A program made the position numbers and the translations under genes. A stretch of DNA of 57,931 nucleotides, taken from contig NZ_CP121649.1 in NCBI RefSeq assembly GCF_029714205.1, positions 1-57,931 on the forward strand. Direction: 5' to 3'. The notes under the pieces were generated by a model. That model saw only the letters and a program-made list of their open reading frames with translations, was not told where the DNA came from and did no database searches. The stretch is from Methylobacterium sp. CB376. Its GTDB lineage: Bacteria; Pseudomonadota; Alphaproteobacteria; Rhizobiales; Beijerinckiaceae. Positions 14,331 through 57,827 of this stretch are shown here, piece by piece; the stretch's first letter is position 1, and every line of letters begins with the position of its first letter.

Positions 14331-14707
14331 ATGCTGGCATGGGTAAGAGAGTGGTTCCGGGGCAACGCGGGCATCGGCGGCTGGTGGACGGCGGAGCGGC
14401 AGCAGCACGCGGTCGACGTGCTGGTGAAGGGCGGCGTCTCGGAGCTGGGCGCGAAAGCCCTGGTGGCGCGCTGGTCGGGCGTGTCGCAAACGTTCAACGC
14501 CCGAAAAAAATCGTCTCCGAACAAGGCGTGACGAGGCCTGCTCACCGCCTGCTGACCCCCTCCGACGAGGCTGGCGAAGCAGTTTGACGAGCCCGGTATC
14601 GGCCTGACGGACCGGTGTGCGCCTACGCGGGGAGCATAATTTTCTCCGCCAAAAATCTTTGCGACACGCCCCATAAGGACTGCGTGTCTTGTTTTCAGCG
14701 AAGGCTG
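14331..14707 (+). pseudogene. Small hypothetical gene interrupted by the miniature element
   Basis: The 5' part (14331-14476) encodes MLAWVREWFRGNAGIGGWWT, then QHAVDVLVKGGVSELGAKAL and VARW, an Ala/Val helical protein. It is interrupted by the 195-bp element at 14477-14671. Joining across the element gives IRTACLVFSEG and a stop at 14705-14707, an original length near 60 residues. The function is unknown. Confidence 0.4.
14477..14671 (+). mobile_element. Miniature inverted-repeat element, copy A (195 bp)
   Basis: Ends are GGGCGTGTCGCAAA and its exact reverse complement TTTGCGACACGCCC. The interior has no coding capacity for a transposase. Subtype 1: seven-A run and AACAAGG. Identical in type to copy B and different from copies C and D. 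No target duplication is obvious. Confidence 0.9.
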
Positions 14708-15175
14708 ACCAGCCAGGCGCGGTACGCACCCGGTACGCAGGCCCAACACACGCGACCGCGTACCTCAAATGTGGCGCCGTTCGGCCGGGACACGCATGGC
14801 GGCGGCTCTTGCGCTTCAGCGCAGCACACGTCCGGTTACAGCCGGGGTTACAGGCTGCAAGCGTAGGGAGGATGTAACCGTGGCAACCGAGATCCCGTCC
14901 GAAGCCCGCCGTCTGTGTTTTGCGTCACGGCAGTTCAAATCTGCCGCGACGCCTGGGTGGGGAGCGGACCGATATTTTCATGCTTTGAGTTTTGAAAACA
15001 ATCAAAGAAAATCAAATCAGGTTCGACCCACCGGGGGCGAGTGATCCGCCTCACGGACAAGCGATTTATCAGGGCAGGTCAGGGCTTCCACTCTGCACGG
15101 CTCGGCGCCGAGCGCGCTGCGACGAGGCGCATTCTCGTGGTTGGTACATCATGAGGATGACGGTAATTCCCGCCT
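14708..15175. other. Stretch without a supported gene; hairpin at 14922-14952
   Basis: GCGTCACGGCAG (14922-14933), a 7-base TTCAAAT loop and CTGCCGCGACGC form a 12-bp stem with one mismatch. The loop and upper stem resemble a tRNA T-arm, but no rest of a tRNA is present. It could be an old attachment site. Confidence 0.35.
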
Positions 15176-15343
15176 ATGAAAAGGCTGCTCGTGCGAGATG
15201 CGATGAACGCGCGCTCGCGCTCGCTGATCAAACGGTTCCTCGATGCACCGCTCCCGCATCAGATGCGGACCCCCGAGCAGATCGAGGCGTACTGGAAGGA
15301 GCTGGGGGCGGAGATCGGCCCCGTCACCGAAACGCCGCGGTAA
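15176..15343 (+). CDS. Small hypothetical protein (55 aa)
   Basis: The frame reads MKRLLVRDAMNARSRSLIKR, then FLDAPLPHQMRTPEQIEAYW and KELGAEIGPVTETPR. An in-frame TAA lies 12 bases upstream, fixing the start. The amphipathic helix IEAYWKELGAEIG and basic N-terminus look like a real small protein. No family is recognised and no strong RBS is seen. Confidence 0.45.
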   Translation: MKRLLVRDAMNARSRSLIKRFLDAPLPHQMRTPEQIEAYWKELGAEIGPVTETPR

Positions 15344-15451
15344 CGCCCGAGGCCCCGCGAACGACAAAGGTCCCACCAGCGCGGGCCGGTAGGGCCTTCG
15401 TTTAGGGCCAGTCGCGTCAACGGCCGACCCCTTAGGTCCCCGAAGGAATGG

Positions 15452-15871
15452 TTAGTCCACCAGCTCGCGCTGGCGCGTGCGCGGACGGCCGCCGAGCTTC
15501 CCGTTCTCCCGGGAGGCTTGCGCCTTGCGCTCCGTCCGGGCGCTGCCGCCCGCGCGGCCGAGGTGCTGCGCCATCCACTTGCCCGAGCCTGTCACGCCCT
15601 CGATCAGTGCCGGCACGTACACGTCGGCGTCGAGGCGCGGGAAGTGCAGGCCGAGGCCGGCCGGCGTGACCTCGATCTCGCGCAGGTCCTCCGGCGAGGC
15701 GCCAGCCAGCCCCTCGATAATGGCGACGGGCACGCGCAGCTCGGCTCCCGTCGAGAGCCCCACGACAAGGCGCCCGCCGGCGGTCAGGTAGCGCGCAGAG
15801 GTCGCGTGCGGACCCGCCTGCCGGACGCGCTTCGCCCGAGCGGTGACCCACTCGAATGCAGCCTCATCCAT
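15452..15871 (-). CDS. DUF2442-domain protein
   Basis: The 139-residue protein has a DUF2442 core at about 15-95 (AKRVRQAG, YLTAGGRLVVGLSTGAELRV, EVTPAGLGLHFPRLDADVYV). The C-terminal 40 residues are basic and AT-hook-like (GKLGGRPRTRQREL). It overlaps the upstream DUF4160 gene by eight bases, so both are translated together. DUF4160/DUF2442 pairs behave like toxin-antitoxin operons in genome surveys; here the basic tail would suit the DNA-binding regulator. The start is the ATG overlapping the DUF4160 stop. Confidence 0.8.
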   Translation of the reverse strand: MDEAAFEWVTARAKRVRQAGPHATSARYLTAGGRLVVGLSTGAELRVPVAIIEGLAGASPEDLREIEVTPAGLGLHFPRLDADVYVPALIEGVTGSGKWMAQHLGRAGGSARTERKAQASRENGKLGGRPRTRQRELVD

Positions 15872-16106
15872 GGATCTTCCTCCACTCCTCACAGAGGTGG
15901 GTGAGGTTCGCCTCAAGCTCCCGGGCGAGGGCCGCGGCGCGCTGGAGGGCGAACCCGTGGTTCTCTCGGATCTTGACCGGCCCGTCAGGGCAGTTGAGGT
16001 TGAACACCGCCTCGCAGTCCTCGCCGATGACGTGGACGTGCGCGGGGCGATGGTCGTTGGGGTAGATCACCACGCGGAGCGATTCGATCCGAAGAACCGT
16101 TGGCAT
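15864..16106 (-). CDS. DUF4160-domain protein
   Basis: This 80-residue protein has the full DUF4160 signature: TVLRIESLRVVIYPNDHRPA, then HVHVIGEDCEAVFNL and the C-terminal helix LARELEANLTHLCEEWRKIH. The DHRPAHVHV histidines are the family hallmark. It is the first gene of a two-gene operon with DUF2442. The biochemical role is unknown; a toxin-like role is a literature hypothesis, not proven by sequence. Confidence 0.85.
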   Translation of the reverse strand: MPTVLRIESLRVVIYPNDHRPAHVHVIGEDCEAVFNLNCPDGPVKIRENHGFALQRAAALARELEANLTHLCEEWRKIHG

Positions 16107-16165
16107 GGTGATAGCAGAAACCCAACCGCTTAGGAACAGGCGAAACGTCGCGCGGTTCCCTCGCC

Positions 16166-16717
16166 TCAGGCGTTGGCCTCGCCGAGGAGGCGGTAGACGC
16201 TCGCCCGGCCGATGCCGAGGCGCCGGGCGATCTCGGCCGGGCCAATGCCTTCCGCCTTGAGCGCCCGGACCTGCGCCACGTCGATGGAGGCCGGGCGCCC
16301 CTTGTAGACGCCCTCCGCCTTCGCCTTGGCGATGCCCTCAAGCTGGCGCTCGCGGCGAAGGTTCGTCTCGAACTCGGCGAAGACGCCCAGCATGTCGAGG
16401 AACGCCTTGCCGGCCGCGGTGGCGGTATCAATGGGCTGTTCCGTGGCCTGGAGGGCCGCACCCTTCACCCGCAGGCTCCGCACGATGTCCTGGAGGTCCC
16501 CAATCGAGCGGGCGAGCCGGTCGATGCGGGTGACCACCAGCACGTCGCCTCGGCCGATGAAGTCGAGGATGGTGGCGAGTTCGGTCCGGCCGTTGGTGCT
16601 GGTGCCGGAGACCTTCTCGGACCGCACCACGTCACAGCCCGCGGCCTTGAGGCCGGCGAGCTGGAGGGCGAGGTCCTGGTCGGTGGAGCTGACGCGGGCG
16701 TAGCCGATGCGGGCCAT
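16166..16717 (-). CDS. Serine resolvase/invertase (Tn3 resolvase-like)
   Basis: The 183-residue recombinase has the catalytic N-terminus IGYARVSSTDQD (Ser 10), the arginine-rich active-site region VTRIDRLARSIGDLQ, the long E-helix, and a C-terminal HTH (IGPAEIARRLGIGRASVYRL, about 155-176). Such resolvases resolve plasmid multimers or transposon cointegrates by cutting at a res site. A candidate res region lies directly upstream. No Tn3 transposase is present, so plasmid dimer resolution is the likelier role. Confidence 0.92.
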   Translation of the reverse strand: MARIGYARVSSTDQDLALQLAGLKAAGCDVVRSEKVSGTSTNGRTELATILDFIGRGDVLVVTRIDRLARSIGDLQDIVRSLRVKGAALQATEQPIDTATAAGKAFLDMLGVFAEFETNLRRERQLEGIAKAKAEGVYKGRPASIDVAQVRALKAEGIGPAEIARRLGIGRASVYRLLGEANA

Positions 16718-16830
16718 GGAATGTCTCGGACGGGTCTAGACCCGGAGATTATAGCGTCTCATAAATGCGATATCAATCCATATGAGACGCCAAGAGTGTC
16801 TCACGCGGGCGTCTCGGATGGGTATACCCC
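16718..16830. promoter_or_regulatory. Candidate res site / resolvase operator
   Basis: A perfect palindrome CGGGTCTAGACCCG (16731-16744) is followed by inverted arms GCGTCTCATA (16754-16763) and TATGAGACGC (16781-16790) around a 17-base AT-rich spacer, then by GTGTCTCACG and CGTCTCGGATGGG. The spaced TCTC/GAGA half-sites fit resolvase subsites. CGTCTCGGATGG recurs at 18031, after the next gene. Confidence 0.6.
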
Positions 16831-17044
16831 AATGAGGCGGTCCTATCACGATCTCGGCAGGGTGGTGAAGGAGGCTGCCGTCATCGGCCTTCTGCAAGGC
16901 GTCGATCAATGCCACTCTGTCATCGGTTATCGGGCAGTGCTCCCGGCTTGAGTTGAAGTCCGCGAACTCCATCTTTGCCGCGCCGCCCGTCTTCTCAGAG
17001 CCTTGCCGGGGGTCAATCCAGCCCGAGCATCGCGAGGTGATGGA

Positions 17045-18031
17045 ATGAGACGGCGCGAGTTTCTCATTTCTCTTGCGATGAGCGCGAGTGGGCTGCGCAC
17101 CAGCCGGGCCGAGGCGGCAGGGGTCATCCGGGTGGGCGTTCTGAATACTGGACAAGAGAGCGCCGGTAGAAGGGCGCGTGCGGCAGCGCTTCGGCAAGGA
17201 ATAGCAGAGCAGAGCCTTGCTTCTGATCGACAAATCGCTCTCGACTTCATCTGGGCTGGAGCGGAGCCTGAGGCTACACGCCTGGCAGCGAGAGCCCTTG
17301 TCGAGGCGCGAACCGAAGTGCTGGTCGGTGCGGGGACATCGGCTACTGCTGCGCTAATGCGGGAAACGCGCACTCTCCCGATAGTTTTCGTCTCCGTGTC
17401 CGACCCGATCGGTGAGGGATTTGCAGCGAGCTACTCCAAGCCTGGCGGTAACGCCACCGGACTATCTAACTTCGAGCCGTCTATGACAGCGAAGTGGTTG
17501 GAATTGCTCGAAGAGATCGCGCCGGGCACGACTCGTCCTGCGCTCCTGTTTCACCCTAAAACGGCGGCAGGGCAGGGTCAGTTCTTTTGGCGGCCCTTCA
17601 GTGCCGCGGCCGCGTCCCTCAATCTCGATCCCATTCCAGTTTCCGTGGACCGCATGGAGGACGTCGAAGCAGCGACCGTCGAACTGGCTCGACAACCCGG
17701 GACTGCTTTGGCGATCGCACCGAGCAGTTTCACAAGCCTTCACGGGCTTGAGATCGCTAGTTCAGCCAATCGCCGTGGCTTGCCCACGGTGTTTCCATTT
17801 TCTGAGTTCGCCAGGGGAGGAGGTCTGATCTCCTACGGGGCGCATGTCTTGGACTTGTTTCGACGTGCAGGAAGCTTCGTGATCAGGATCGCCAATGGGG
17901 AGCATCCAGCAGACCTCCCCGTCGAGGCACCGACGCATTTCGAACTGGTCGTGAACGCCAGAACCGCAAAGATGCTGGGCCTGGCGGTCCCGCCGCTGCT
18001 CCTCGCCCGCGCCGACGAGGTAATCGAGTAA
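17045..18031 (+). CDS. ABC transporter substrate-binding protein (TrpX/PF04392-like)
   Basis: A 328-residue exported protein with an N-terminal RRREFLISLAMSASG that resembles a Tat signal. The mature domain fits the two-lobe ABC substrate-binding fold of the family with AAGVIRVGVLNTG, SDPIGEGFAASYSKPGGNAT and LARADEVIE at the end. RBS GAGGTGAT precedes the ATG at 17045, which I prefer over an upstream frame extension. No permease or ATPase gene accompanies it, so it is an orphan binding protein; ligand unknown. Resolvase-like motifs flank it on both sides. Confidence 0.85.
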   Translation: MRRREFLISLAMSASGLRTSRAEAAGVIRVGVLNTGQESAGRRARAAALRQGIAEQSLASDRQIALDFIWAGAEPEATRLAARALVEARTEVLVGAGTSATAALMRETRTLPIVFVSVSDPIGEGFAASYSKPGGNATGLSNFEPSMTAKWLELLEEIAPGTTRPALLFHPKTAAGQGQFFWRPFSAAAASLNLDPIPVSVDRMEDVEAATVELARQPGTALAIAPSSFTSLHGLEIASSANRRGLPTVFPFSEFARGGGLISYGAHVLDLFRRAGSFVIRIANGEHPADLPVEAPTHFELVVNARTAKMLGLAVPPLLLARADEVIE

Positions 18032-18655
18032 CGTCTCGGATGGCTGCTTCCGACACGTCTCAGAATTGAAGATCGGACCTCAACGGGACACATACGCCCG
18101 CTTGGGTATACCCATCGAGAACCGACGTGGCCGCATGGCTGGAGCCGGGCGGCAATCTCCGCAATGGCTCTACGATGGGGAACGACCGACACACTGCACG
18201 ACAAATGTCTTAGATCTCTTCGACTATGGTTTTGTGTTTCGGTTTTGGTTGTCTATTGCTTTTCTTATAACTTTCCTAATATGTTCTCGAATTCGCGCGC
18301 TTCGCTCCGCTGAATTATCCGTCGCTTCATGGGTTTCGGGTTTGATCGGATCGCGCATCGATTGGGTTCCCGGCGCCAGAGAGCCTGCATACTCAACAAG
18401 GAGCCCAGCCTCTTAGGCAGGGCGGCATGTCGGTGTGACTACACAACCTACTCTGCCCTGAACCTGCTAGATAGTGCAGCGATCCCGAAGTCACGTAGTC
18501 ATTATGCCCCACATTTGATCTTTCAGTTAATTTAACAAATATTCGGTAGGCATATTAAGCTTCCGTAAACCAAGTATGCGTATTTACTTGCTGTCGAATA
18601 CGTAGGCTGCCGGACGGAGCCGCGCACTCCCGACCGCCCAGAAAAGGGTCACCTG
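18032..18655. other. AT-richer stretch without a supported gene
   Basis: It starts with CGTCTCGGATGG and CACGTCTCAG (res-like motifs shared with 16718-16830). The remainder, notably 18220-18310 and 18530-18600, is AT-rich and lacks a recognisable frame. It may carry the promoter of the gene at 18656. Confidence 0.4.
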
Positions 18656-18871
18656 ATGCAGCGCTTCTACTTCGACCTCGCTGACGGGGTGACGACTATC
18701 CGGGATGACGTAGGGGTCGAGGCCGTAAATTTGGATGAGGCGCTGGAGGAGGCCGAAGCCGTGATCCGGGAGATGCGAGCCAATGGCGAGCTGGCGCACC
18801 TCGGAGACGGCTGGACCCTCTCCATCCGCGCGGAGGCCGAGACCGTCCTGGCGATCCTGCTCGTGGAGTAG
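18656..18871 (+). CDS. DUF6894-family small protein
   Basis: The 71-residue protein MQRFYFDLADGVTTIRDDVG, then VEAVNLDEALEEAEAVIREM and TLSIRAEAETVLAILLVE, matches the small DUF6894 family, abundant in Methylobacterium and Bradyrhizobium. The family opens with a RFYFDL-type strand and a D-D-V/EG turn. Function is unknown. The usual length is 65-90 residues, so it is complete. Confidence 0.75.
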   Translation: MQRFYFDLADGVTTIRDDVGVEAVNLDEALEEAEAVIREMRANGELAHLGDGWTLSIRAEAETVLAILLVE

Positions 18872-18985
18872 CGGCTGGTCGCAGAGGGTGTGGTGCTCGA
18901 CCTCGCGGCGATCCTGCTGGCGCGGCCCGCATAAGCCAGAACCCACGGCAAGCCCCACCACACCTCGGTGCCGTACCACCCCGTC

Positions 18986-19369
18986 ATGCCGACCGCCGAC
19001 CCGACCGCCGATCACTCCACCTTCGTCTCCGAGTGGAACCGCGGGCTCGCCTCCCTCTCGCCCGGGCAGCCGCCGTGCCCCGGCTTCCGCCCGGAGGACT
19101 GGGCCACCACCCTGGAGAACTGCCGCCGCTTCGTCGACGAGTTCGGCGCCGAGGCGGCCCGGCTCGGCTGGGACACGATCCTGCTGTTCGGCGTGCACCC
19201 GCAGGCCGGCATCATCCGGGGCGACTGGAGCGGGGTGATGATGCCGTGCTCCTACCCCGTGTTCGAGGTCACCGAGGCGTACCTGAAGAAGCACCTCTAG
19301 ACGTCGTGGAAGCGCAAGCCGGGGCGCTACCGCGGCGTGCCGGTCTGGGAGTTCGGGAAGAAGACCTAA
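18986..19369 (+). pseudogene. Hypothetical protein gene with in-frame amber stop
   Basis: From ATG 18986 the frame encodes about 104 residues (FVSEWNRGLASLSPGQPPCP, GWDTILLFGVHPQAGIIRGD, ending YLKKHL) and meets TAG at 19298-19300. The same frame then continues TSWKRKPGRYRGVPVWEFGK KT to TAA at 19367-19369. The tail looks coding, so the TAG is probably a recent nonsense change. Related proteins with the LFGVHP segment occur on Methylobacterium replicons. The function is unknown. Confidence 0.5.
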
Positions 19370-19595
19370 GCCCTGTTGTGGCGGCCGGACGGTGAAGCGC
19401 CAATCCGGCCGCCCACTGCGCCGCCCCGCAACCGGGTGAAGCACGACGATGCAGCGTCCGACACTGTAGGAACCAGCTACAAAGAAATCGTAGCGGGACC
19501 GCAAGCTCGGCCCTAGCCTGCACCGATTGTCAACGGGCTTCGAACCTTCCGCAATTTCGGGCGCGCAATTTTCCTCAGATCGGCGGGCTCGGCGG

Positions 19596-20471
19596 TCAGG
19601 CGATGCCGAGGTGAGCACCTCCATTCTTGGGCGGGCGTCCGCGCCGACGCGGAGGCGGGGCGAGCGGCGGAGCCTGCAGGGCTGCCTTCGAGCGGATGTG
19701 CTCGGGCATGAGCGCGGTGTGCTGGCGCAGCCGGTAGCTTGAGCCCTCGATCTGCACCACCACGGCGTGGTGAAGCAACCGGTCCAGCAGCGCGGTCGCC
19801 ACCACCGGATCGCCGAACACCTCCCCCCACTCTGCAAAGCCGCGGTTCGAGGTCAGGACCATCGCGCCCCGCTCGTAGCGCGCGTTGACGAGCTGGAAGA
19901 ACAGGTTGCCCCCGCCCGGCACCACCGGCAGGTAGCCGATCTCGTCCACGATCAGCAGCGCCGGCCGGCAGAAGTAGCGGATCTTCTCGCGCAACGTTCC
20001 TTCCCGCTCGGCCCGCGCCAGCGTTCCCACAAGGTCGGCCAGGGTGGTGAAGTACACGCTGCGGCCCGCCTTCACCGCCTCGACCCCGAGGGCCACCGCC
20101 AAGTGGCTCTTGCCGGTGCCGGGCGGGCCGAGGAAGTGCAGCACCTCGCAGCGGTCCACGAAGCCCAGCTCGGCCAGGGCCAGGATGCGGGTGCGGTCGA
20201 GCGAGGGCTGGAAGGCGAAGTCGAAGCCCGACAGCGTCTTGACCGTCGAGAGCCGCGCCATCACCAGCGCGGTCTTCACCCGCCGGCTCTCGCGTAGGCT
20301 CAGCTCCTCGCTCAGCAGGGCATCGACCGCCTCCAGCGCGCTGAGTTCGCCGCGCTCCAGCCGCCGCACGGTGGTGTCGACGATCTCCAGGGCGCGCGGC
20401 ATCTTCAGCCCTACCAGCGTGGCCTTGATCCGCTCGACCAGTGGGGGGATCAGCTCGCCAGTTCCGCTCAT
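19596..20471 (-). CDS. istB: IS21 helper ATPase IstB
   Basis: This 291-residue AAA+ protein has a Walker A GPPGTGKSHLAVALG near 113-127, a Walker B ALLIVDEIGYLP near 171-182, and the sensor segment VLTSNRGFAEWGEVF. It helps the IstA transposase choose and hold target DNA. The C-terminus is an unusually long basic tail (PPLAPPPRRRGRPPKNG). Full length for the family, so the element may be active. Confidence 0.93.
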   Translation of the reverse strand: MSGTGELIPPLVERIKATLVGLKMPRALEIVDTTVRRLERGELSALEAVDALLSEELSLRESRRVKTALVMARLSTVKTLSGFDFAFQPSLDRTRILALAELGFVDRCEVLHFLGPPGTGKSHLAVALGVEAVKAGRSVYFTTLADLVGTLARAEREGTLREKIRYFCRPALLIVDEIGYLPVVPGGGNLFFQLVNARYERGAMVLTSNRGFAEWGEVFGDPVVATALLDRLLHHAVVVQIEGSSYRLRQHTALMPEHIRSKAALQAPPLAPPPRRRGRPPKNGGAHLGIA

Positions 20472-21751
20472 GCCGCGTCTCCCCGGTCGGTCCTGGGCAC
20501 GCCGGCTCCCGCGAGTTGGCGGGCTACGGCGTCGTAGATGGCCAGCGGGCGACGCGCGACCTGGTCGCCGGCGCGCCTGACGACCACCGGCTCGGCAGGG
20601 TCTCGTGGCTCGGGCGGGGGAGATCGCGGCCGCCGATGGGCTGGATCGACCTGCGTCAGCCCACGCCCTTCCAGGGGCAGGTGGCAGGCAACGAGCTCAC
20701 CCGCCTCGTAGATGCGGATCTGATCGGCCAGCACGTGCACCTCCAGGGCGCGGCGGCGGGTGGTGTCGGGCACGCTGTAGAGATTGCCCGCCACCGAGAC
20801 GAAGCCCTCGTGGGTGACGCGCCGCTCCAGGCTGAGCACGGCTTCGTAGGGCACGGGCGGCAGCGCCCGCAGCTGGCTGCGCTCCTCCGCGAAGGCGTCG
20901 GCGACGATCCGCTTGGTCGTGGCGTGCCGGCGGGCGTTGGCCACGGTGTCGAGCCAGTGCCGCAGCTGGTCGTTCAGGTCGTCGAGGTTGCGGAACGAGC
21001 GGGCGAGGAAGAAGTCCTCGCGCAGGTAGCGGAACGGGCGCTCGACCTTGCCCTTGGTCTTGGCCCGGTAGGGACGGCAGGCGCGCGGCAGGAACCCGTA
21101 GTGGCGCGCGAGATCGAGAAGGCTGCGGTTATAGATGACCAAGCCGTCGGGATCCTCGCCGATCACGGCGGTCTTCATGCGGTCGTAGAGGATCTCGCGC
21201 GGGGCGCCTCCAAGGGCCTGGAAGGCGGCGATGTGGCAGCGCAGGACCGTCTGCAGATCCTGGTGGACGACGAAGCGGGCCCAGAGATAGCGCGAGTGGC
21301 CCAGCACCATCGCGAACAGCCAGACGATGCGGGTCACGCCCGGCTCGTCGGCGAAGACGACCTCGAAGCGGGCGAGGTCGACCTGGGCCTGCTCGCCCGG
21401 CGGGGTCTCGAAGCGGCGCTCGATAGGCAGAGGAGCTGAGGGGCGAAGCAGGGCCACGGCTCGCTTCACGGCGGTGTAGGCCCCTGCGAAGCCGCGCTCC
21501 TTCAACTCGCGCCAGAGACGGACGGCCGTAAGCTGCGGGTAGGCGGCCAGGCGCTCGCGCAGGTAGGGCAGGAAGGCGTCGGTGGCCCGCGCGCGGGGGG
21601 ATCGCGGTCCGTAGACGGGCGGCTCGAGGCCGCGGGCGATGTACTTGGCGACGGTCTTGCGGTCGAGGCCGAGCTGGCGGGCGATGGCGGTGACCGAGAG
21701 GCCCTGCCGGTGGAGGTCCAGGATCGTCATGAGTTCCCCGAGGCTGACCAC
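20468..21751 (-). CDS. istA: IS21 transposase IstA
   Basis: About 427 residues. The N-terminal HTH MTILDLHRQGLSVTAIARQL GLDRKTVAKYI is followed by the DDE integrase core (ARFEVVFADEPGVTRIVWLF, REILYDRMKTAVIG, YRAKTKGKVERPFRYLREDF). The start is uncertain: the frame is open to a TTG at 21820, but a GTG at 21751 or the ATG at 21730 fits the family N-terminus better. It overlaps istB by four bases (ATGA). Confidence 0.9.
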   Translation of the reverse strand: MVSLGELMTILDLHRQGLSVTAIARQLGLDRKTVAKYIARGLEPPVYGPRSPRARATDAFLPYLRERLAAYPQLTAVRLWRELKERGFAGAYTAVKRAVALLRPSAPLPIERRFETPPGEQAQVDLARFEVVFADEPGVTRIVWLFAMVLGHSRYLWARFVVHQDLQTVLRCHIAAFQALGGAPREILYDRMKTAVIGEDPDGLVIYNRSLLDLARHYGFLPRACRPYRAKTKGKVERPFRYLREDFFLARSFRNLDDLNDQLRHWLDTVANARRHATTKRIVADAFAEERSQLRALPPVPYEAVLSLERRVTHEGFVSVAGNLYSVPDTTRRRALEVHVLADQIRIYEAGELVACHLPLEGRGLTQVDPAHRRPRSPPPEPRDPAEPVVVRRAGDQVARRPLAIYDAVARQLAGAGVPRTDRGDAA

Positions 21752-21921
21752 CGCGCCGCTCCCTCCCGCCACGGGGACCAGCTTCGGTGAGACGGCCGCC
21801 GCGCGGGCATCCCGCCTCAAACAGGAGGCTCAGGGGCGGCCGGGAGGGTGGGGAAAATTGCAGGCCCACAAGTGAGGAGGATCCAACGCCCGCTCACACC
21901 GATCACAGCGTGACCGTGCCC

Positions 21922-22356
21922 ATGCCGATCCGACCCGAGCACCGCGGCTTCTACCCGATCGACTGGCCCCAGCTCTCGGACGTGATCCGCTTCCGGCGCG
22001 CGGGCGGGCGATGCGAGGGCTGCGGTCGGCCGCACCTGCAACGGATCGCATGCTTGCCGGACGGGCGATGGTTCGACGCCGCCACCGACACGTGGCGCGA
22101 CGGGTGCGGCCGGATCCTGCGCAGCCGGATGCTCCTGGAGAACCTGCTCTACACGGTGCGCTTCACCCGCGTGGTCCTGGCGACCGCGCACCGGAACCAC
22201 GACACGTCCGACAACGCGCCCGGCAACCTCGCGGCGCTCTGCCAGCGCTGTCACATGATCCACGACCGGCCGGAGCACCAGCGGCGGCGCCGGTTCACCC
22301 TGTTCAGCCGTAAGGCGGCGGGCGACCTCTTCCGCGGTCCGTACCGTAAGCTTTAA
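21922..22356 (+). CDS. HNH-endonuclease-like protein
   Basis: This 144-residue protein has a split zinc site: CEGCGRPH near residues 34-41 and CQRCHMIHD near 112-120, with the HNH-like HRNHDTSDNAPGNLAALC between. That is the treble-clef layout of HNH nucleases. The C-terminal RRRFTLFSRKAAGDLFRG recurs at 41900 in a remnant. It is complete, with the IS21 ending just upstream. It probably came with a phage. Whether it cuts DNA is not shown. Confidence 0.75.
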   Translation: MPIRPEHRGFYPIDWPQLSDVIRFRRAGGRCEGCGRPHLQRIACLPDGRWFDAATDTWRDGCGRILRSRMLLENLLYTVRFTRVVLATAHRNHDTSDNAPGNLAALCQRCHMIHDRPEHQRRRRFTLFSRKAAGDLFRGPYRKL

Positions 22357-22367
22357 GCGCAATACGA

Positions 22368-22898
22368 TTATCCGCCGGCCCCGCCCTCAACGAGATCAAT
22401 GATTGTCCGTATAGGAATAAGCATCTTTGGCGCAATATTGTCCCGAGTGTAGGGCTCAAAACCTAAACTCTCGTAGAACATGGTTGACTGTCTATCAATA
22501 GACTGTAAAGTAAGCGCATAGAGACCGGCAAGCAGGGAGACTTTATAGGCTTTATCTATAACATCCTTCAGTAAAATTGTTCCTACACCCTTTCTCTGAT
22601 ATTCTTTTTGCACTCCTAAGTACGCCAAATGCAGCGCCGGAAAAGCGGTATAATTCTTGGTGTGGTCGTCCGGCTTGTTCTCAAGTTCGGCCATGCTCTC
22701 GCTGCCTATCTGGAGAGCATGGAAACCGGCAACCGCATTCGTGTCTTCGTCTACAGCAATAGTAATGCGTGCTTCTGCGCGATCAGACCACTTCTTTGAG
22801 TGGTTTCTGTACCATTGATCAATACCCCTTCTGCCGCACTCGAATGTATTGCGAGAGCGGGTCCTATCAAACGGCTGTACAATAATTCTTCCGGTCAA
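22368..22898 (-). CDS. GNAT acetyltransferase, TacT-like toxin candidate
   Basis: The 176-residue GNAT protein opens with the TacT-type block FDRTRSRNTFECGRRGIDQW and has the acetyl-CoA loop QRKGVG at 101-106 and the C-terminal Tyr motif MFYESLGFEPY near 140-150. TacT toxins acetylate the amino group of charged tRNAs. The start is a TTG that overlaps the stop of the upstream small gene by four bases (TTGA), as in toxin-antitoxin operons. Its base composition is clearly less GC-rich than its neighbours, which points to transfer. The toxin role is inferred. Confidence 0.75.
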   Translation of the reverse strand: MTGRIIVQPFDRTRSRNTFECGRRGIDQWYRNHSKKWSDRAEARITIAVDEDTNAVAGFHALQIGSESMAELENKPDDHTKNYTAFPALHLAYLGVQKEYQRKGVGTILLKDVIDKAYKVSLLAGLYALTLQSIDRQSTMFYESLGFEPYTRDNIAPKMLIPIRTIIDLVEGGAGG

Positions 22899-23107
22899 GC
22901 GGCAGATGCTTTTTTGATAACTCTACCATCACGCTCAAGCTGGTCAGCTTTATTGTAAAGATCGCGAAGCTTTTGATTAGGTGCCCCGTTTTGATTATAT
23001 ATACGACGCACAAATTCGGCTGCTTCGCGCTGGCTCTTGAATTCTAGCTTCTCTGCCTTGTCGCTGGATTGGGTAAACCAGCGCAGAAATTCCCTGAAGG
23101 TATACAT
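22895..23107 (-). CDS. Small partner of the GNAT protein (putative antitoxin)
   Basis: This 70-residue protein (MYTFREFLRWFTQSSDKAEK, then REAAEFVRRIYNQNG and LYNKADQLERDGRVIKK) lies directly upstream of the GNAT gene with a 4-base overlap. It is helical and charged, and lacks the RHH signature of the usual DUF1778/TacA antitoxins. The EFKSQREAAEFVRRIY segment could wrap the toxin. I do not recognise the family; the antitoxin role rests on position, size and coupling only. Confidence 0.6.
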   Translation of the reverse strand: MYTFREFLRWFTQSSDKAEKLEFKSQREAAEFVRRIYNQNGAPNQKLRDLYNKADQLERDGRVIKKASAA

Positions 23108-23256
23108 TCCGCGCCCCTGCCCCCAGACCTCTACCAGACTGCCGCCGATTGAGCTGTCAAGCAGTTAATCGCAGAACGGCCCATTTGTTCACATGTCGCT
23201 CCTACGCAGCGTGCGTACGCAATCGTCGCGCAACGAGCGAGGTCTACATCTCGGTG

Positions 23257-23607
23257 ATGACCCGCCACCCGCGCCGCGCCCACGACGACCAGGGCCGCGA
23301 GATCCCGCCGCCCACGATCGGCTGGCTCCGGTCCGAGGAGGGCGACCGCACCGCCTTCGTCCACTGCAACGCGACCGGCTGCGGCCACGAGGCGACGATC
23401 AGCACCGATCCGTTTCCGGACAGCCTGCCCTTCCCCGACATCGCCTTGCGCCTGCGCTGCGCCGCCTGCGGGTCGAGGGAGGTTGGGGTCATGCGCGACG
23501 TCGTGGGGATCTACGCCCGGCTCGGACGGCGCACGGGGTGGAGCATGGGCGCGGCCGGGGCGCGGCCGGTCGCCCGAAGGGATGCGCCTGATCGCGACCG
23601 CCCCTGA
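23257..23607 (+). CDS. Zinc-ribbon-like hypothetical protein
   Basis: The 116-residue protein contains VHCNATGCGHEATISTDPFP followed by LPFPDIALRLRCAACGSREV, with two cysteine pairs about 40 residues apart that suggest a zinc ribbon. The second half (RLRCAACGSR) is a frequent pattern in small Rhizobiales proteins of unknown function. The C-terminus is low-complexity. The ATG at 23257 was chosen because similarity-like composition begins there. Confidence 0.6.
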   Translation: MTRHPRRAHDDQGREIPPPTIGWLRSEEGDRTAFVHCNATGCGHEATISTDPFPDSLPFPDIALRLRCAACGSREVGVMRDVVGIYARLGRRTGWSMGAAGARPVARRDAPDRDRP

Positions 23608-23823
23608 AACGCAGAAAGGCCCGCCGCGGCCGGAGCCGGGCGGGCCGTGGAGATCCAACATGATCGAAAGCATCGAGAGCCTGCGCGTCAAGCGGGCGCA
23701 CGGCGTGCCGCTGCCCCGGACCCGGATCTGCGGGGCCTAGCGCGGCCCCGCCTTGATCGAGCTGTCGACCTGCCGGCGCTGGGTGATCGAGACGTCCTTG
23801 AACAGATCGTCCATCGAGGCCCG

Positions 23824-25251
23824 GGTCGTGTCCCTGGTGGTGGTGTAGCTCGACGGGAGCGAGAGAGCCCGTCTGCGCGCCCTCCACAGCGCCGAAGCAG
23901 GCGGGATCTCTCGCGGGGTGGTCATCGGCGGTTGCCGGGTAGGGTCGGGGTGCGAGCACCAACCTCGAACCCGAGAGACCTCCGATGACCGACGAGATGA
24001 TGAGCCTGCGCGGGCTGCTGGAGAAGAGCGCCGACGCCGACCTGCTGCGCGAGATGATCGGCTTTGCGGCCGAGCGGCTGATGGAACTGGAGGTGGGCGG
24101 CCTGACCGGGGCGGCCCACGGCGAGAAGAGCGCCGAGCGGCTGGTCCAGCGCAACGGCTATCGTGACCGGGATTGGCAGACGCGGGCCGGCACGGTCGAG
24201 CTGCGCATCCCCAAGCTGCGCAAGGGCTCGTACTTCCCGGCTTTCCTGGAGCCGCGCCGGATGGCCGAGAAGGCACTCACGGCGGTGATCCAGGAGGCGT
24301 ACATCCAGGGCATCTCGACCCGCTCGGTGGATGACCTCGTCCAAGCCATGGGCGGCACGGGCGTGTCCAAGAGCCAGGTCAGCCGGCTCTGCCAGGAGAT
24401 CGACGAGCGCGTGGGCGCGTTCCTCGACCGGCCGCTCGAGGGGGAGTGGCCCTATCTCTGGATCGATGCGACCTACGTGAAGGTGCGCCAAGCCGGGCGC
24501 ATCGTCTCCGTCGCGGTGATCGTGGCGGTCGGTGTGAACAGCGATGGCCGACGCGAGGTGCTCGGCATGGACGTCGGCCCCTCCGAGGCCGAGACGTTCT
24601 GGACCGGGTTCCTGCGCAAGCTGGCGCGCCGCGGCCTGCGCGGTGTGAAGCTGGTGATTTCGGACGCCCACACGGGCCTCAAGGCGTCGGTCGCCAAGGT
24701 GATGAACGCGACTTGGCAGCGGTGCCGCGTCCACTTCATGAGGACCGTGCTCGCCCACGCTGGCCGCAGCGGGCGGCGCGTCGTGTCCGCCTTCATCGCC
24801 ACCGCCTTCGCCCAGGACGACGCCGAGGCCGCCCGTCAGCAATGGCGACGCGTGGCCGACCAACTCCGACCCAAGGTGCCCAAGCTCGCAGCCCTGATGC
24901 ATGAGGCGGAACCCGACGTGCTGGCCTACATGGGCTTCCCGGCCGCCCACCGGGTCAAGCTTCACAGCACGAACCCGCTGGAGCGCCTCAACGGCGAGAT
25001 CAAGCGGCGCACCGAGGTGGTCGGCATCTTCCCCAATGAGGCGGCCATCACCCGCTTGGTCGGCGCGCTCCTGCTCGAACAGAACGACGAGTGGGCCGTC
25101 CAGCGCGCCCGCTACCTGACCCTGGAAAGCATCGCCCCGATCAGCGATGATCCTCTTGTCAGCCTGCCCACCCTGGCAGCCTGATCGTCCCGGCCCCGCC
25201 CGGTGACCGTGGCCGCCACGCCGCAGCTACACCACGCCTGGGGACACGACC
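23824..25251 (+). mobile_element. Complete IS256-family insertion sequence
   Basis: Terminal inverted repeats GGTCGTGTCCCTGG and CCTGGGGACACGACC enclose one transposase gene. An 8-bp target duplication GAGGCCCG is present at 23816-23823 and 25252-25259. The intact ends, duplication and transposase show a recent insertion. Confidence 0.93.
23985..25184 (+). CDS. IS256-family transposase (mutator type)
   Basis: The full-length 399-residue DDE transposase has the family blocks [20 protein letters not shown], the first Asp in [15 protein letters not shown], the second in [13 protein letters not shown], and the Glu in [21 protein letters not shown]/DxxC-type [12 protein letters not shown] is also present. 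The start lies 161 bases inside the left end. It catalyses transposition of the surrounding element. Confidence 0.95.
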
Positions 25252-25859
25252 GAGGCCCGGGCGCGCGTCCCGGTCGGGAAGCCGTCCATGGTGATGTGCA
25301 GGTGGCCCTTGCCGCTACCGGCCGAGGCGCCCGCGCTGTTGAAGCGGCGCTGCATCATGTCGTCGCCGACGCGCGACATCGCGATCTTCTGAGACGGCGG
25401 TCCGTCCTTGAGGTCGTTCACGACCTCGTCGTCGCGCAGGCGCGAGTAGCCACCGGCCTTGGACGGGTAGTAGCGGTCGCGCTTGTACCAGAGCACGTCG
25501 CCACCGCTCGCGACCTGCACCGGCTCACCCGGAGGGCCGACCTTCAGCCCCCCCATCGCCGCGGCCGTGCGGCCGGTGAACAGGTCGACGCCCGTGCGCG
25601 CGTTGTAGCCCTCCGCCCGCTCGAACATCGAAGCCCCGGTCGCGGCCTCGAACGGGGTCTTGGCGGAGTTGAGCTTCGCGAGCGCCCGGCGCTCGGTCGT
25701 GTGCAGCTCGTGCAAGGCGTGCCGGAGCTGCGCGTCGAAGTCGGTGTTGCCGCGGATCGGAGCCAGACGGTCCCGAGACAGCCACTGCGCGATCCCGAAC
25801 GCGCCCGAGCGCGGGTTCACCGAGGTCGGGCCGCCGCGGGCCTCCACGGCTGACCAGCG

Positions 25860-26054
25860 GGGCGTGTCGCAAAGATTTTTGGCGGAGAAAATTATGCTCC
25901 CCGCGTAGGCGCACACCGGTCCGTCAGGCCGATACCGGGCTCGTCAAACTGCTTCGCCAGCCTCGTCGGAGGGGGTCAGCAGGCGGTGAGCAGGCCTCGT
26001 CACGCCTTGTTCGGAGACGATTTTTTTCGGGCGTTGAACGTTTGCGACACGCCC
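25860..26054 (-). mobile_element. Miniature inverted-repeat element, copy B (195 bp, inverted)
   Basis: Same 14-bp ends as copy A and the same subtype (seven-A run, AACAAGG on its own strand), but opposite orientation in the window. It forms the 5' boundary of the lysozyme fragment and lies 53 bases from the stop of the polygalacturonase gene. Confidence 0.9.
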
Positions 26055-27682: not shown

Positions 27683-28794
27683 TTACTCGCGCCCAGTCAA
27701 CCACTCGGCGATGCCGGTCCCAAGCAGGCTCTGCGCCCTCCCGCCGACGAATACGCCGACGTGCCCGCCTGGGAGCGGCAGCTCGGTATAGTCCGACGTG
27801 CCTACGAATTGCTTGAGTGCCCGCGATGTTGCCGGTGGAATAATATGATCATATTTTGCGTAGATGTTCAAGACTGGGCATTTGATGTTGCCAAGATCGA
27901 CGGTTCTGCCGGCTAGCTGGAACGAGTTTTGCACCAGCTTGTTGTCCTGATACAGATTTTTCAGCCACTGCTTGGCGGCCTCACCGGGATGGTGCGGCCG
28001 ATCGGAAATCCACTTTTCCATACGCAAGAAGTTCATAAACCTTTTCTTATTGTCGATTACGTCAAGAAGATCAAGGTTGTACTTGGTCATCGTGCGCATC
28101 GGCGTCATCAGCGCGAACACCGAGCCCATGAATTCACCCGGCAACGTGCCGTGCGCCTCGATGAGGCGGTCAATGTCATCAGGCTCAAGGCTGCGCGTCC
28201 ACATGTTGATGAAGCCGTGACCTTTGCGGTTCTCGACAGTGTCGGCGTGGAAGTCGATCGGCGTGATCGTCAGCACCATCGCGTTGACGTCCTCGGGGTG
28301 CAGCGCCGCGTAGCAAGTCGTGAAGGTCCCACCCTCGCAAATCCCGAGTAGATTGATCTTCGCCCCCCCCCCCCCCCCGCCTCGGAGATGACGTTCACGC
28401 ATTCAGCGAGATAGCCGTCGATGTAGTCATCAAGCGTCACGAAGCGGTCGGCTCGGCTCGGATTGCCCCAGTCCACTACGTAGAGGTCAACACCGAGCTT
28501 CAGCAGATTGCGAACGAGCGAGCGATCCTCCTGCAGGTCGGCTATCGTGTGGCGACCGATAAGCCCATAGACGATGAGGACGGGTGTCCTGACCTTCTGC
28601 TCGGCAAGAGATCGGTAGCGGTACAGTGTGACCTTATCCTGCTGCCAGATTACAACTTTCTCGCTCGTCGCAATCTGAACGTCCTCGTCGCGGACCTCCT
28701 GGAAGAGCTTGGCTCCTTCCGCGAGCCGCTTTCCAAGCGCTGCCGCCTCCGCGACGGGGTCAAGCGCGGCTTTGGATTTGGCAGAGCGGCTCAT
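27683..28794 (-). pseudogene. phaC: Class III polyhydroxyalkanoate synthase subunit PhaC, frame broken by G16
   Basis: Two overlapping frames give one PhaC. The first has KVTLYRYRSLAEQKVRTPVL, VDLYVVDWGNPSRADR and YLAECVNVISEA. The second has INLLGICEGGTFTTCYAALH with the nucleophile Cys in GICEGG, then IYAKYDHIIPPATSRAL and LPGGHVGVFVGG with the catalytic Asp and His. The switch falls in a run of 16 G (coding strand; 28363-28378). With 14 or 17 G the gene would be one open frame of 369-370 residues. PhaC polymerises 3-hydroxyacyl-CoA together with PhaE. It overlaps phaE by four bases. Confidence 0.85.
28363..28378 (-). repeat. Homopolymer run of 16 C (16 G in phaC)
   Basis: It sits inside the phaC coding region just before the nucleophile motif. 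It would encode a stretch of Gly. The length is out of frame by one base relative to 17 and by two relative to 14. Confidence 0.95.
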
Positions 28795-35418: not shown

Positions 35419-35683
35419 CTAGTTGTCTGGATGCGAGACCTCCTTGGCGTCTGCGACCACCTTGAGCGCTGCGGGGAGCGCGTCCGGATCAGGCGGCCTA
35501 GTGACGGGCTTGGCCAGCTCCGGCTTCGCCTTCAGCCGCTCACGCAGGACCCTGTCCGGTGAGCGGCTGAAGGCGAAGCCGGAGCTGGCCAAGCCCGTCA
35601 CTAGGCCGCCTGATCCGGACGCGCTCCCCGCAGCGCTCAAGGTGGTCGCAGACGCCAAGGAGGTCTCGCATCCAGACAACTAG
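35419..35683. repeat. 265-bp near-perfect palindrome (two 125-bp arms)
   Basis: 35419-35543 and 35559-35683 are exact reverse complements around a 15-base centre. Each arm encodes the same gene tail: ERLKAKPELAKPVTRPPDP, then ALPAALKVVADAKEVSHPDN and a stop. Such a long palindrome would form a cruciform and is usually deleted in cells, so it is either very recent or an assembly artefact. The tail belongs to an unrecognised protein. Confidence 0.9.
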
Positions 35684-37208: not shown

Positions 37209-38101
37209 GGGCCTGTCGCAAACGCGAACGGGCTCGCGTTCATGGGTCGTTAGCCATACCCGCCCAGCTTGCCGCTCCGCCTCGGAGCCGGCCCATGATC
37301 CTGAACGCCCTCGCCCTCAAGCTGAAGAGAGAGGCCCGCGGCGACTTCACGGGCCGGCACTTCGAAGCCACTCTCATCGTCCAGGCCGTCTCCTGGTACC
37401 TGCGCTACGCGCTCAGCTACCGCGACATCGAGGAGATGCTGCTGGAGCGGGGTATGGGGGTGGACCACTCCACCATCAACCGCTGGGTGCTGGCCTACGC
37501 GCCCGCCATCGAGCGGCGCCTGCGCCGGTTCCGCAAGCCGCATTGCGGGTCCGTGAGGGTGGACGAGACCTATATCAAGGTGCGTGGCCAGTGGCGCTAT
37601 CTGTACCGGGCCATCGACAAGCATGGCGAGGCGGTCGACTTCCTGCTCACCGCCAACCGCGACCTGGAAGCGGCCAAGCGCTTCTTCCGCAAGATGCTAC
37701 AGGATCAGCCGCTTCTCGCGCCCGACCGCATCGGCACCGATGGTGCTGGCCCTTACCCGCCGGCGATCGCCGAGAGCCGCAAGGAGGGCCTGCTGCCACG
37801 CGCGCCCATCCACCACGTCACCAAGCACTTGCAGCAAGGGATTGAGAGCGACCACTTCCGGGTCAAGCGGCCGATGCCACGGGTCGGGGGCTTCCGCGCG
37901 TTCCACACGGCGCGGCGGACGATCCAGGGCTTCGAGGCCATGCTTTGGCTGCGCAAGGGTTTCGGGTTCTCAGGGGCGTGGACGGTCCGGGAGCAGAACC
38001 GACTGCTCGCGCAGTGCTTCGGACTTCCCGTGGCGAACAAAGCGTGAAAGCGGGACGGCAGAGACCCTTCTGCGGCCTGGACCCCAGTTTGCGACAGGCC
38101 C
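37209..38101 (+). mobile_element. IS6-family insertion sequence
   Basis: Ends GGGCCTGTCGCAAAC at 37209 and the exact inverse ending at 38101 enclose one transposase gene (893 bp total). No 8-bp duplication flanks it. A truncated second copy abuts it at 38102. Confidence 0.9.
37295..38047 (+). CDS. IS6-family transposase
   Basis: The full-length 250-residue transposase has the N-terminal zinc-finger-less IS6 start FTGRHFEATLIVQAVSWYLR YALSYRDIEEML. The DDE residues lie in SVRVDETYIKVRGQWRYLYR, IGTDGAGPYPPAI and QGIESDHFRVKRPMPRVGGF. IS6 elements move by replicative cointegration, which readily produces inversions and deletions like those seen nearby. Confidence 0.93.
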   Translation: MILNALALKLKREARGDFTGRHFEATLIVQAVSWYLRYALSYRDIEEMLLERGMGVDHSTINRWVLAYAPAIERRLRRFRKPHCGSVRVDETYIKVRGQWRYLYRAIDKHGEAVDFLLTANRDLEAAKRFFRKMLQDQPLLAPDRIGTDGAGPYPPAIAESRKEGLLPRAPIHHVTKHLQQGIESDHFRVKRPMPRVGGFRAFHTARRTIQGFEAMLWLRKGFGFSGAWTVREQNRLLAQCFGLPVANKA

Positions 38102-41975: not shown

Positions 41976-42169
41976 GGGCGTGTCGCAAACGTTCAACGCC
42001 CGAAAAAATCGTCTCCGAACAGGGCGTGACGAGGCCTGCTCACCGCCTGCTGACCCCCTCCGACGAGGCTGGCGAAGCAGTTTGACGAGCCCGGTATCGG
42101 CCTGACGGACCGGTGTGCGCCTACGCGGGGAGCATAATTTTCTCCGCCAAAAATCTTTGCGACACGCCC
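41976..42169 (+). mobile_element. Miniature inverted-repeat element, copy C (194 bp)
   Basis: The same 14-bp ends as the other copies. Subtype 2: six-A run and AACAGGG, shared only with copy D. Confidence 0.9.
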
Positions 42170-54306: not shown

Positions 54307-54315
54307 CCACAACGA

Positions 54316-54337: not shown

Positions 54338-54434
54338 TCGTTGAACCAATCCCGTTCCTGTACAAACGGCCGGACCCCAATACGCGCCGACCCACGCCAG
54401 CCAAGCTGTCTACTCCTCCCATCGGGGGCACAGC

Positions 54435-54625: not shown

Positions 54626-54631
54626 GGACGG

Positions 54632-56187: not shown

Positions 56188-56401
56188 CGCCCGTTCGACA
56201 CCCGTCGTACGCGCGAACCCACGTGGGCCGAGCACAGCCTCGTGAACGGGCGTACGGCTTCCACGGTGTGTGGGTGTCGGCCGGGCGTCGGACAGGTGAT
56301 CGCCTCGGGCGCGGCTCCTCCCATCGCTGCCCGCCGGCTTACACCCCACCTTAACCCCACGGCCCCAAGCTCCCCGACAGGCAAGCGCCCCCTTGCTTGC
56401 C

Positions 56402-56449
56402 AACGAGGCGGCCGGGCCTGGCCAGACTTATCGGCCCGGCCGCCTCGTT
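56402..56449. terminator. Long perfect hairpin
   Basis: AACGAGGCGGCCGGGCC (56402-56418) pairs perfectly with GGCCCGGCCGCCTCGTT (56433-56449), a 17-bp stem with a 14-base loop. With flanking A/T it could terminate transcription in either direction. Confidence 0.45.
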
Positions 56450-56473
56450 CTCCAGACCGGCCCCGAGCGGCGA

Positions 56474-56644
56474 ATGCAGATCTACCGCCGGCTGCGGGAG
56501 CGCGGCTTCAGCCCCGTCCAGACGCTCGCCATGATCGGCGTCAGCGTTCCGCTTCTGGTGGCCGGCGCGAGCATCACCCTGCTCGGCACGCTCGACGCAT
56601 GGGGCCTGGTCGAACCGCTCCGGGCGAGCATCCCCCGCGGGTAG
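56474..56644 (+). CDS. Small membrane protein (56 aa)
   Basis: MQIYRRLRERGFSPVQTLAM, then IGVSVPLLVAGASITLLGTL. A basic amphipathic N-terminus is followed by one hydrophobic helix (about 20-42). ATG 56474 has no strong RBS. Its family is not recognised. Confidence 0.45.
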   Translation: MQIYRRLRERGFSPVQTLAMIGVSVPLLVAGASITLLGTLDAWGLVEPLRASIPRG

Positions 56645-56675
56645 CAGGGACCTGTCGGTCCTCCGCAAGCGACGT

Positions 56676-56936
56676 TTAATCGTCGCCCTCGGGCTCGACA
56701 CAGGACTCGACGAACACCCGGCGCACCTCGCCCCGCAGCCGCTTCCTCACAGCTTCAGCGTCACATCGCGCCAGTAGGGCGGGATCCACATCAGTCATGC
56801 GATCCGGGGTGGCGGCGTCTTCGCTGACCTCCGGGGCTGGTTGGTCAGGAGCAAGCAAGGCGGCGTGTGCGAATACCGCGCCGGGCAAGCTCGCCAGGAG
56901 CACTGAGGCGCGGAGCGCAACGACGTAAGCCTTCAT
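56676..56936 (-). CDS. Small secreted PsiF-like protein
   Basis: The 86-residue exported protein has a signal peptide (about 1-23) and the same domain as 33748-33989: VDPALLARCDAEAVRKRLRG, then EVRRVFVESCVEPEGDD. Two cysteines bracket the helix. Spacing matches the PsiF repeat only loosely. The role is unknown. Confidence 0.65.
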   Translation of the reverse strand: MKAYVVALRASVLLASLPGAVFAHAALLAPDQPAPEVSEDAATPDRMTDVDPALLARCDAEAVRKRLRGEVRRVFVESCVEPEGDD

Positions 56937-57384
56937 CAGCCCCCCACCCTGAACTGCCAAGATTGGCCTTGAACTTGCGGCATAGCGTAGGCGAGTGGGG
57001 CCAGTCACTACACACTGCTTGAGTCCAAGCGCGCTGGGCTTCTGGACTCACATGATGGACAGGCCGCGTCGGCTCGGCAGGGCCAGCGCGGCGCTGGTGG
57101 TGGGGACCAGCGGGCTGAAGCCTCGCGGTACCGCGAAACTCAAGCCGGATTGACGCGTCACAACCCAAATCGCTCCCGCGCAACTACGAGGCGGGCTTGA
57201 GTAATCGAGCCCGCCCCTGACGGGATGTCGCAATTGTCGCACCAGAACAAATAGTGTCCGAGCCGCGCGGCGCCGGCATTGACGGTCAATCCCTGTCGTC
57301 GCACCCTTACGTCCGTGCGCGGGCTCGGAAACGCAATGCGGTCCTGGCCGGAGACGTGGAACATGGACGGCGAAGGAGATCTTG
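56937..57384. other. Stretch without a supported gene
   Basis: A hairpin GGCGGGCT (57190-57197) with AGCCCGCC (57208-57215) is visible. No convincing frame. Confidence 0.4.
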
Positions 57385-57827
57385 ATGGCTAGGAGAAAGC
57401 CGAAGCCCGACTGGCCTGCACAGGGCCGGATCAGAGCCTGGAGGGCGTGTCGCAAACGTTCAACGCCCGAAAAAATCGTCTCCGAACAGGGCGTGACGAG
57501 GCCTGCTCACCGCCTGCTGACCCCCTCCGACGAGGCTGGCGAAGCAGTTTGACGAGCCCGGTATCGGCCTGACGGACCGGTGTGCGCCTACGCGGGGAGC
57601 ATAATTTTCTCCGCCAAAAATCTTTGCGACACGCCCCGCTCGATTACACCAAGCCGCCGCGTCCTCTGTGGCAGGAGCGTGAGGCCAGGGCCGAACGGGC
57701 GCAACTGCACGGCAACTTCGCCCGCGCGGTCAGTGCCACTGGCAAGGGCGCAGCCGTTCGGGAGTTCAAGAACGCTCACCTGTTTATGAAGGGCAAGCCG
57801 AGCCGTGACTTCGGGCGGGAGAGGTAG
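57385..57827 (+). pseudogene. Small hypothetical gene interrupted by miniature element D
   Basis: It starts MARRKPKPDWPAQGRIRAW after GAAGGAGA. Removing 57443-57636 (194 bases) joins the codons exactly as RAWTLDYTKPPRPLWQ and gives a single 82-residue protein that continues REARAERAQLHGNFARAVSA and ends KPSRDFGRER. The element therefore disrupts a real gene. A basic, soluble protein of unknown function. Confidence 0.65.
57443..57636 (+). mobile_element. Miniature inverted-repeat element, copy D (194 bp)
   Basis: Same ends and subtype 2 features as copy C (six-A run, AACAGGG). Clean excision of GGG...CCC restores the host reading frame without leaving a target duplication. Confidence 0.92.

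Follow-up and report, generated by a model that had tools for sequence, protein, structure and literature searches.

How does a DNA element that encodes no transposase come to occupy four sites on a single plasmid, and what has it done to that plasmid? The question is raised by the second contig of the 7.69-Mb genome of Methylobacterium sp. CB376 (NZ_CP121649.1), which is 57,931 bp long and was analyzed in its entirety (the window), and in which a preliminary description had noted a four-copy family of miniature inverted-repeat transposable elements (MITEs). We favor, with a probability of roughly 75%, the interpretation that these are non-autonomous MITEs of the IS6/IS26 type (IS, insertion sequence), moved replicatively by a resident IS6-family transposase acting in trans. 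All four copies were found where they had been placed, and they form two identical pairs:

14477-14671, + strand: MITE copy A, 195 bp, seven-A subtype; element-left flank CGCTGGTC, element-right flank CATAAGGA
25860-26054, - strand: MITE copy B, 195 bp, identical to A; element-left flank TCGCGGGG, element-right flank CGCTGGTC
41976-42169, + strand: MITE copy C, 194 bp, six-A subtype; flanks GTTTGCCG and GGATGAAG, without target duplication
57443-57636, + strand: MITE copy D, 194 bp, identical to C; flanks AGCCTGGA and CGCTCGAT, without target duplication

Each of the eight ends is exactly GGGCGTGTCGCAAA, and the two subtypes differ as had been described, with seven A and AACAAGG in A and B, and six A and AACAGGG in C and D. 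The absence of an encoded transposase was likewise confirmed, as copy A contains no whole open reading frame (ORF) of at least 20 amino acids, and the five ORFs that overlap it each cross one of its ends. With up to three mismatches allowed, GGGCGTGTCGCAAA has 19 matches in the window compared to a mean of 9.7 in 100 shuffles, none of which reached 19. For extension of the terminal repeat into positions 15-60, the number of shuffles out of 500 that scored as well was 0 for the copy from Leaf117 (G055), 2 for copy H, 24 for copy A and 181 for the copy from the Methylobacterium genome G011, a spread from which we draw no conclusion.

The most direct evidence for movement comes from copies A and B and the DNA around them, for which the following features can be delineated:

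14331-14476, + strand: 5' part of a phage-tail-lysozyme-like gene, cut by copy A; a 66-amino-acid hypothetical protein of the public record starts here and enters A
14469-14476, + strand: first copy of the 8-bp target CGCTGGTC
14672-25859, no strand assigned: 11.2-kb segment between A and B, probably inverted, given the inverted 8-mer and the gene split over both sites
25227-25859, - strand: 3' part of the phage-tail-lysozyme-like gene (P0001), cut by copy B; weak match to PF18013
25852-25859, - strand: second copy of the 8-bp target CGCTGGTC, inverted

The plasmid-left flanks of A and B are the same 8-mer, CGCTGGTC, inverted relative to one another. The DNA to the left of A codes for the start of a protein and that to the left of B, on the opposite strand, codes for the remainder, which matches PF18013 (phage tail lysozyme) with an E-value of 8.7e-6 and a score of 26.4 bits, below the cut-off of 28.2. 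When the two gene pieces were searched separately, they adjoined in homologues and overlapped by exactly 8 bp in all five chromosomal stretches, from two related strains, that matched both flanks; some of these chromosomal homologues are themselves frameshifted, and two further genomes (G087 and G036) agree on a contiguous gene at the protein level. The 8-bp overlap and the contiguous homologues imply that the MITE entered this gene, duplicating 8 bp, and that the 11.2 kb between A and B became inverted. The earlier proposal that each pair arose by separate recent transposition events is therefore only partly upheld: A/B and C/D are indeed distinct subtypes, but given the shared inverted target and the inverted segment, A and B appear to be a pair produced by a single event, and a common recent event for C and D is not apparent since their flanks do not match. 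Similarly, the claim that every copy lies in or next to a broken gene holds for A and B, which share one gene split between them, but could not be substantiated for C and D; copy C sits between annotated genes of the public record, and the peptide pieces flanking copy D had no relative among the loci compared.

Strain WSM2598 (G050) offers a view of the same region. The outer flank of the B site is common to WSM2598 except for one G and a nearby substitution, and the B site is the older of the two. The half-copy that WSM2598 has there belongs, over its 86 bp, to the C/D subtype, and as A and B are identical, the two changes that mark them most simply predate their duplication. There is one possible conflict: pieces of the A-B interval are found on the WSM2598 plasmid scaffold C3 at 78-90% identity and in window order, whereas the reverse order would be expected of a relative that predates the inversion. 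Because the outer matches of the scaffold are much closer (95-99%) than these pieces, and its lysozyme-like stretch covers no more than residues 154-204, we tentatively assign the pieces to a different module. The gaps of N in this assembly (C3 10453-10552, and just before 29183) fall within MITE copies, which leaves the plasmid order across them uncertain.

If the MITE transposes, the left flank of a copy is expected to equal a right flank, either its own or that of a partner. We compared the 8 bases on each side, in element orientation, of 23 copies from eight genomes, and found 4 cases, among 129 comparisons within genomes, in which the 8-mer to the left of an element equaled one to the right of an element; same-side matches were absent (0 of 106). 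The four matches are a single copy on C3 of WSM2598, the A/B pair, a pair in strain BTF04 (G068) and a pair in G011. The WSM2598 copy, at C3 10575-10768, has GCGGGCCG on both sides, a perfect 8-bp duplication of the target that marks it as a simple insertion. Five WSM2598 copies are orthologous to chromosomal copies of CB376 and thus add no independent events. In BTF04, a draft contig of 6.3 kb carries two inverted copies, one of them interrupted by an IS66-like insertion, in an A/B-like geometry with a shared 8-mer, ACTAGAAC. In G011, two identical direct copies on contig C2 (47378-47571 and 909194-909387) share ACTTCTTC on their outer sides, and in our reading the outer flanks may be two parts of one protease-like gene. 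Matches to one of these flanks occur in 97 of 111 genomes and are mostly short repeats, and the comparison was made with the three loci from other genomes in which 734 or more of the 806 bases are present; in all three the outer flanks are contiguous, with alignments that overlap by 6 bp and one flank that ends 2 bases short. An 8-bp target duplication can thus be seen as GCGGGCCG in WSM2598, as the 8-bp overlaps at the A/B target, and as 6 aligned plus 2 unaligned bases in G011. If C2 is circular, a 113-kb arc would sit in the protease-like gene between two MITE copies, an arrangement resembling a cointegrate. A search of C2 for RepC genes gave none, and the two RPA genes that it carries lie in the 862-kb arc, so that the identification of the 113-kb arc as a former plasmid or replicon is unsupported.

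What enzyme might have acted on these copies is suggested by their ends. The rule for IS6/IS26 ends is a G at positions 1, 2 and 7 (PMC6807381), and GGGCGTGTCGCAAA conforms to it. The family has IS6/IS26-type ends, although two divergent copies (in G006 and G057) have imperfect ones. The exact 14-mer occurs 20 times in the CB376 genome and not once in a reversed-sequence control; by our assignment, 14 occurrences are MITE ends, 5 are ends of IS6 elements (one a fragment), and 1 is solitary. In other words, five of the six exact 14-mers outside the MITEs are ends of resident IS6-family elements. Four features of the window bear on this relationship:

37209-38101, + strand: ISMtsp1 (name from the public record), an autonomous IS6-family element and candidate helper; ends GGGCCTGTCGCAAA
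37295-38047, + strand: ISMtsp1 transposase, 250 amino acids, no internal stop; NF033587, 260.8 bits
38104-38306, - strand: second IS6 copy, truncated (first 202 bp, 93%), inverted, directly beside ISMtsp1
5641-5654, + strand: solitary exact 14-bp IS6/MITE end, with no element recognized adjacent

The statement that no autonomous parent with these exact ends is present in the window is literally true, but it overlooked ISMtsp1, whose ends match the MITE end at 13 of 14 positions, with one mismatch at each. Nine near-full-length IS6 copies are present in the CB376 genome, of which four carry the MITE end unchanged at one of their two sides and none at both. For six other MITE-bearing genomes, 40 IS6 places were listed and 14 were examined for ends; 12 yielded an end pair, and 7 of these have the exact MITE end on one side. 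Across the seven MITE-bearing genomes sampled in this way (G057 not included), the exact end was found in five, an end with a single mismatch in G055, and only a fragment in G006. The solitary end at 5641-5654 is perhaps the scar of a one-sided deletion.

Based on these data, we propose that the IS6-family transposase of a resident element (the ISMtsp1 group) would be the acting enzyme and would recognize the 14-bp ends of the MITE, which would move replicatively (copy-in transposition) and duplicate 8 bp of the target. Between molecules, the outcome would be a replicon fusion in which two direct MITE copies have the target 8-mer divided between their outer sides; within a molecule, the stretch from the old copy to the new one would be inverted (or deleted), inversion leaving the 8-mer inverted. 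In the case of A and B, a MITE at the B site, with element-left flank TCGCGGGG and original right flank CATAAGGA, would have attacked CGCTGGTC in the phage-tail-lysozyme-like gene and inverted 11.2 kb, and we infer that copying and inversion occurred in a single step. IS6 elements are described as giving rise to 8-bp repeats and cointegrates and, within one molecule, to deletions or inversions (PMC7986276).

Several observations weigh against this interpretation. Flank matches involve no more than 7 of the 23 copies, and the 16 without one include C, D and all five chromosomal copies. The shared words are not rare: the plasmid contains CGCTGGTC 8 times, counting both strands, and the WSM2598 scaffold of 45.7 kb contains GCGGGCCG 19 times, so that we give more weight to the split genes than to word sharing by itself. 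Three positions distinguish the two BTF04 copies from each other. The IS6 elements compared share with the MITE no more than roughly the end, and a 25-bp pattern of the MITE left end (up to 2 mismatches) hit no autonomous element in 111 Methylobacterium genomes; no interior or subterminal sequence in common with an IS6 parent was found, although an internal-deletion derivative would be expected to have it. Target duplications were absent from the 9 near-full-length CB376 IS6 copies and from 20 IS6 end pairs, 8 of which belong to both sets. Finally, the footprints establish insertion and rearrangement, but not their occurrence in one step.

Two candidates for an autonomous version were considered and rejected. 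A 1.56-kb stretch of BTF04 (C88 326-1887) contains a gene that belongs to a nested 1361-bp insertion; this element (L074 53-1413) lies inside a MITE copy, has its own 8-bp duplication, GAAAATTC, and is called IS66-like from our reading of its protein. On a plasmid of M. currus, only a stretch of the MITE right end lies near an IS5-family transposase, with no left partner in the 6-kb locus. More generally, a search for a larger element with the same interior, an outcome that would have counted against the preliminary description by its own account, found none.

The cointegrate and inversion footprints fit IS6-type action, but simple insertion with an 8-bp duplication, by whatever mechanism, followed by recombination between copies, would leave the same marks, including the left flank of one copy matching the right flank of another. 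Such recombination could be due to RecA, to an IS26-type conservative targeted reaction, or to exchange in assembly. We consider this explanation unlikely, though it is a serious rival. It would require a second event for each of the three rearranged insertions among the four matched, and 195 bp is a short stretch of homology for RecA. The one WSM2598 copy with the duplication on both sides is what simple insertion would produce, and two of the three rearranged pairs come from the G011 and draft BTF04 assemblies, in which repeats can be misjoined, and the WSM2598 scaffold has gaps within MITE copies; the arrangement of the window, on the other hand, is the same in the public record NC_010373. 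A RecA-independent reaction between existing IS26 copies has been described (PMC7986276), while even the simple insertions of IS6-family elements are said to derive, in all likelihood, from cointegrates that recombination has resolved (PMC6807381, PMC7986276).

Duplications of about 8 bp are also made by families such as IS1, IS1595, ISL3 and IS66, and the MITE could in principle belong to one of these, its autonomous member being absent from the genomes searched and the likeness to IS6 ends being convergent. The subterminal sequence, common to none of the IS6 copies compared, would allow this, as would starts of the GGnnnTG type, which are reported for the IS1 family as well (PMC6807381). Identity at 14 of 14 positions with resident IS6 ends, and the assignment of five of the six other 14-mers to such ends, make it quite improbable, and inversion and cointegrate footprints do not fit families that move purely by cut-and-paste. 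That the sequence is instead a conserved structured RNA gene or regulatory element, and not mobile, we find scarcely credible. Copies in other species do stay within 182-194 bp, and their interior is recognizable at 71-76% identity to A; however, Rfam gave no match anywhere in the window, four partial stretches of copy A, folded as RNA, had z-scores of only -0.01 to 0.56, and the z-score of -3.07 for the DNA strand of the full element is as expected from perfect 14-bp terminal repeats. Moreover, the copies occupy different sites, with flank matches of the transposition type. Neither folding nor Rfam points to a conserved non-mobile RNA gene, the other outcome that would have counted against the preliminary description.

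Beyond CB376, the family appears to be confined to a single genus. The CB376 genome contains nine full-length copies, as the chromosome holds five more (73-85% identical) along with one partial copy; four of the five and the partial copy cluster at 2.116-2.159 Mb. A match was found in 11 of 111 Methylobacterium genomes, with full-length copies in seven (G000, WSM2598, G006, G011, M. nonmethylotrophicum 6HR-1 (G031), Leaf117 and BTF04), a degenerate 183-bp copy in G057, and short stretches only in three more. Full-length copies of other species are 182-194 bp long and 71-76% identical to copy A. Only 2 of 72,556 plasmid records matched, one being pM44601 itself, the plasmid of Methylobacterium sp. 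4-46 to which the window corresponds, and viral contigs gave no match. A contig scan for exact ends only, which may leave out records very near the window, returned eight stretches, seven from Methylobacterium and one from Labrenzia sp. OB1. The latter, a 192-bp element (L216 919-1110), has the same perfect 14-bp ends, but its interior is largely unrelated, and it was not accepted as a member since its subterminal likeness extends over only about 20-37 bp; possibly it represents another IS6-type MITE family. Among 397 genomes sampled from the taxonomic family under stricter filters, ten matched, of which four were strong and all from Methylobacterium; the other six (one Methylobacterium), at 20-25 bits, were too weak to be accepted. 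Within the searches made, the MITE family is restricted to Methylobacterium, with only weak or partial likeness outside the genus.

IS6-type MITEs and miniature elements of a replicative family are already known. ISfinder lists the IS6-family MITEs MITEBth2 and MITEHarch3 (PMC6807381), and two of 227 and 336 bp are mentioned in PMC7986276. Like the present family, those filed in ISfinder under IS6 lack a transposase; the present one differs in its length of 182-195 bp, its occurrence in Methylobacterium, and its inversion and cointegrate footprints, a distinction drawn from descriptions, not sequences. ISMtsp1 and other IS6 elements of Methylobacterium share with the MITE the 14-bp ends (13 of 14 positions for ISMtsp1; 14 of 14 at one end of several copies) and its genomes, but elements of the ISMtsp1 type are about 893 bp long, carry a transposase gene and have an interior not common to the MITE. 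TIMEs, which are Tn3-derived miniature elements of Pseudomonas, can mobilize DNA between two copies (PMC4133298), and are distinguished by their Tn3 affiliation, 38-bp ends and duplications of 5 or 6 bp, in contrast with 14-bp ends and 8 bp here. MiniMdi3, of Methylobacterium extorquens AM1 and DM4, is also a MITE in Methylobacterium, but is about 400 bp long and related to ISMdi3 (PMC2680597); here, too, the distinction is by description and not by sequence. In the accessible open-access literature we found no description of the present element, ISfinder and subscription papers lying outside this scope.

IS6/IS26 elements are known to fuse and rearrange plasmids with their own transposase, and little has been written on their miniature relatives, of which the IS6 papers cited here mention two. 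Should a 195-bp element have this effect in trans, plasmid rearrangement joints that lack an annotated IS might go unnoticed; 8-mers shared between the flanks of MITEs offer a simple way to detect them. As a small substrate, the MITE would also help to define the sequence requirements of an IS6 transposase. A broader view, which we regard as possible though somewhat less likely than not, is that this is a long-lived gene-less IS6-type lineage in Methylobacterium, driven by resident IS6 transposases, that repeatedly inverts plasmid segments and fuses replicons (the 113-kb to the 862-kb arc, in one genome), amounting to IS26-style genome remodeling by a MITE and not by the full element alone; its conserved interior may have a role of its own, such as binding a host factor.

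With regard to its setting, the window matches pM44601 (NC_010373.1, circular, 57,951 bp) end to end at 99.95-100% identity, with 1 mismatch and 20 gap positions and an identical arrangement. Scanning inward from both ends, the first difference is at 28,379, in a C run, and the last is a base at 35,479. The C run at 28379 is about 20 bases shorter than in NC_010373, probably reflecting a sequencing or slippage difference. Self-matches revealed tandem repeats with a period of about 45 bp at 5906-6207, where the frame reads as Gly-rich and the public record has a "PE family protein". In addition, 6872-7505 and 10583-11240 form an inverted repeat pair of about 650 bp with 96% identity, close to an IS1-family transposase gene of the public record.

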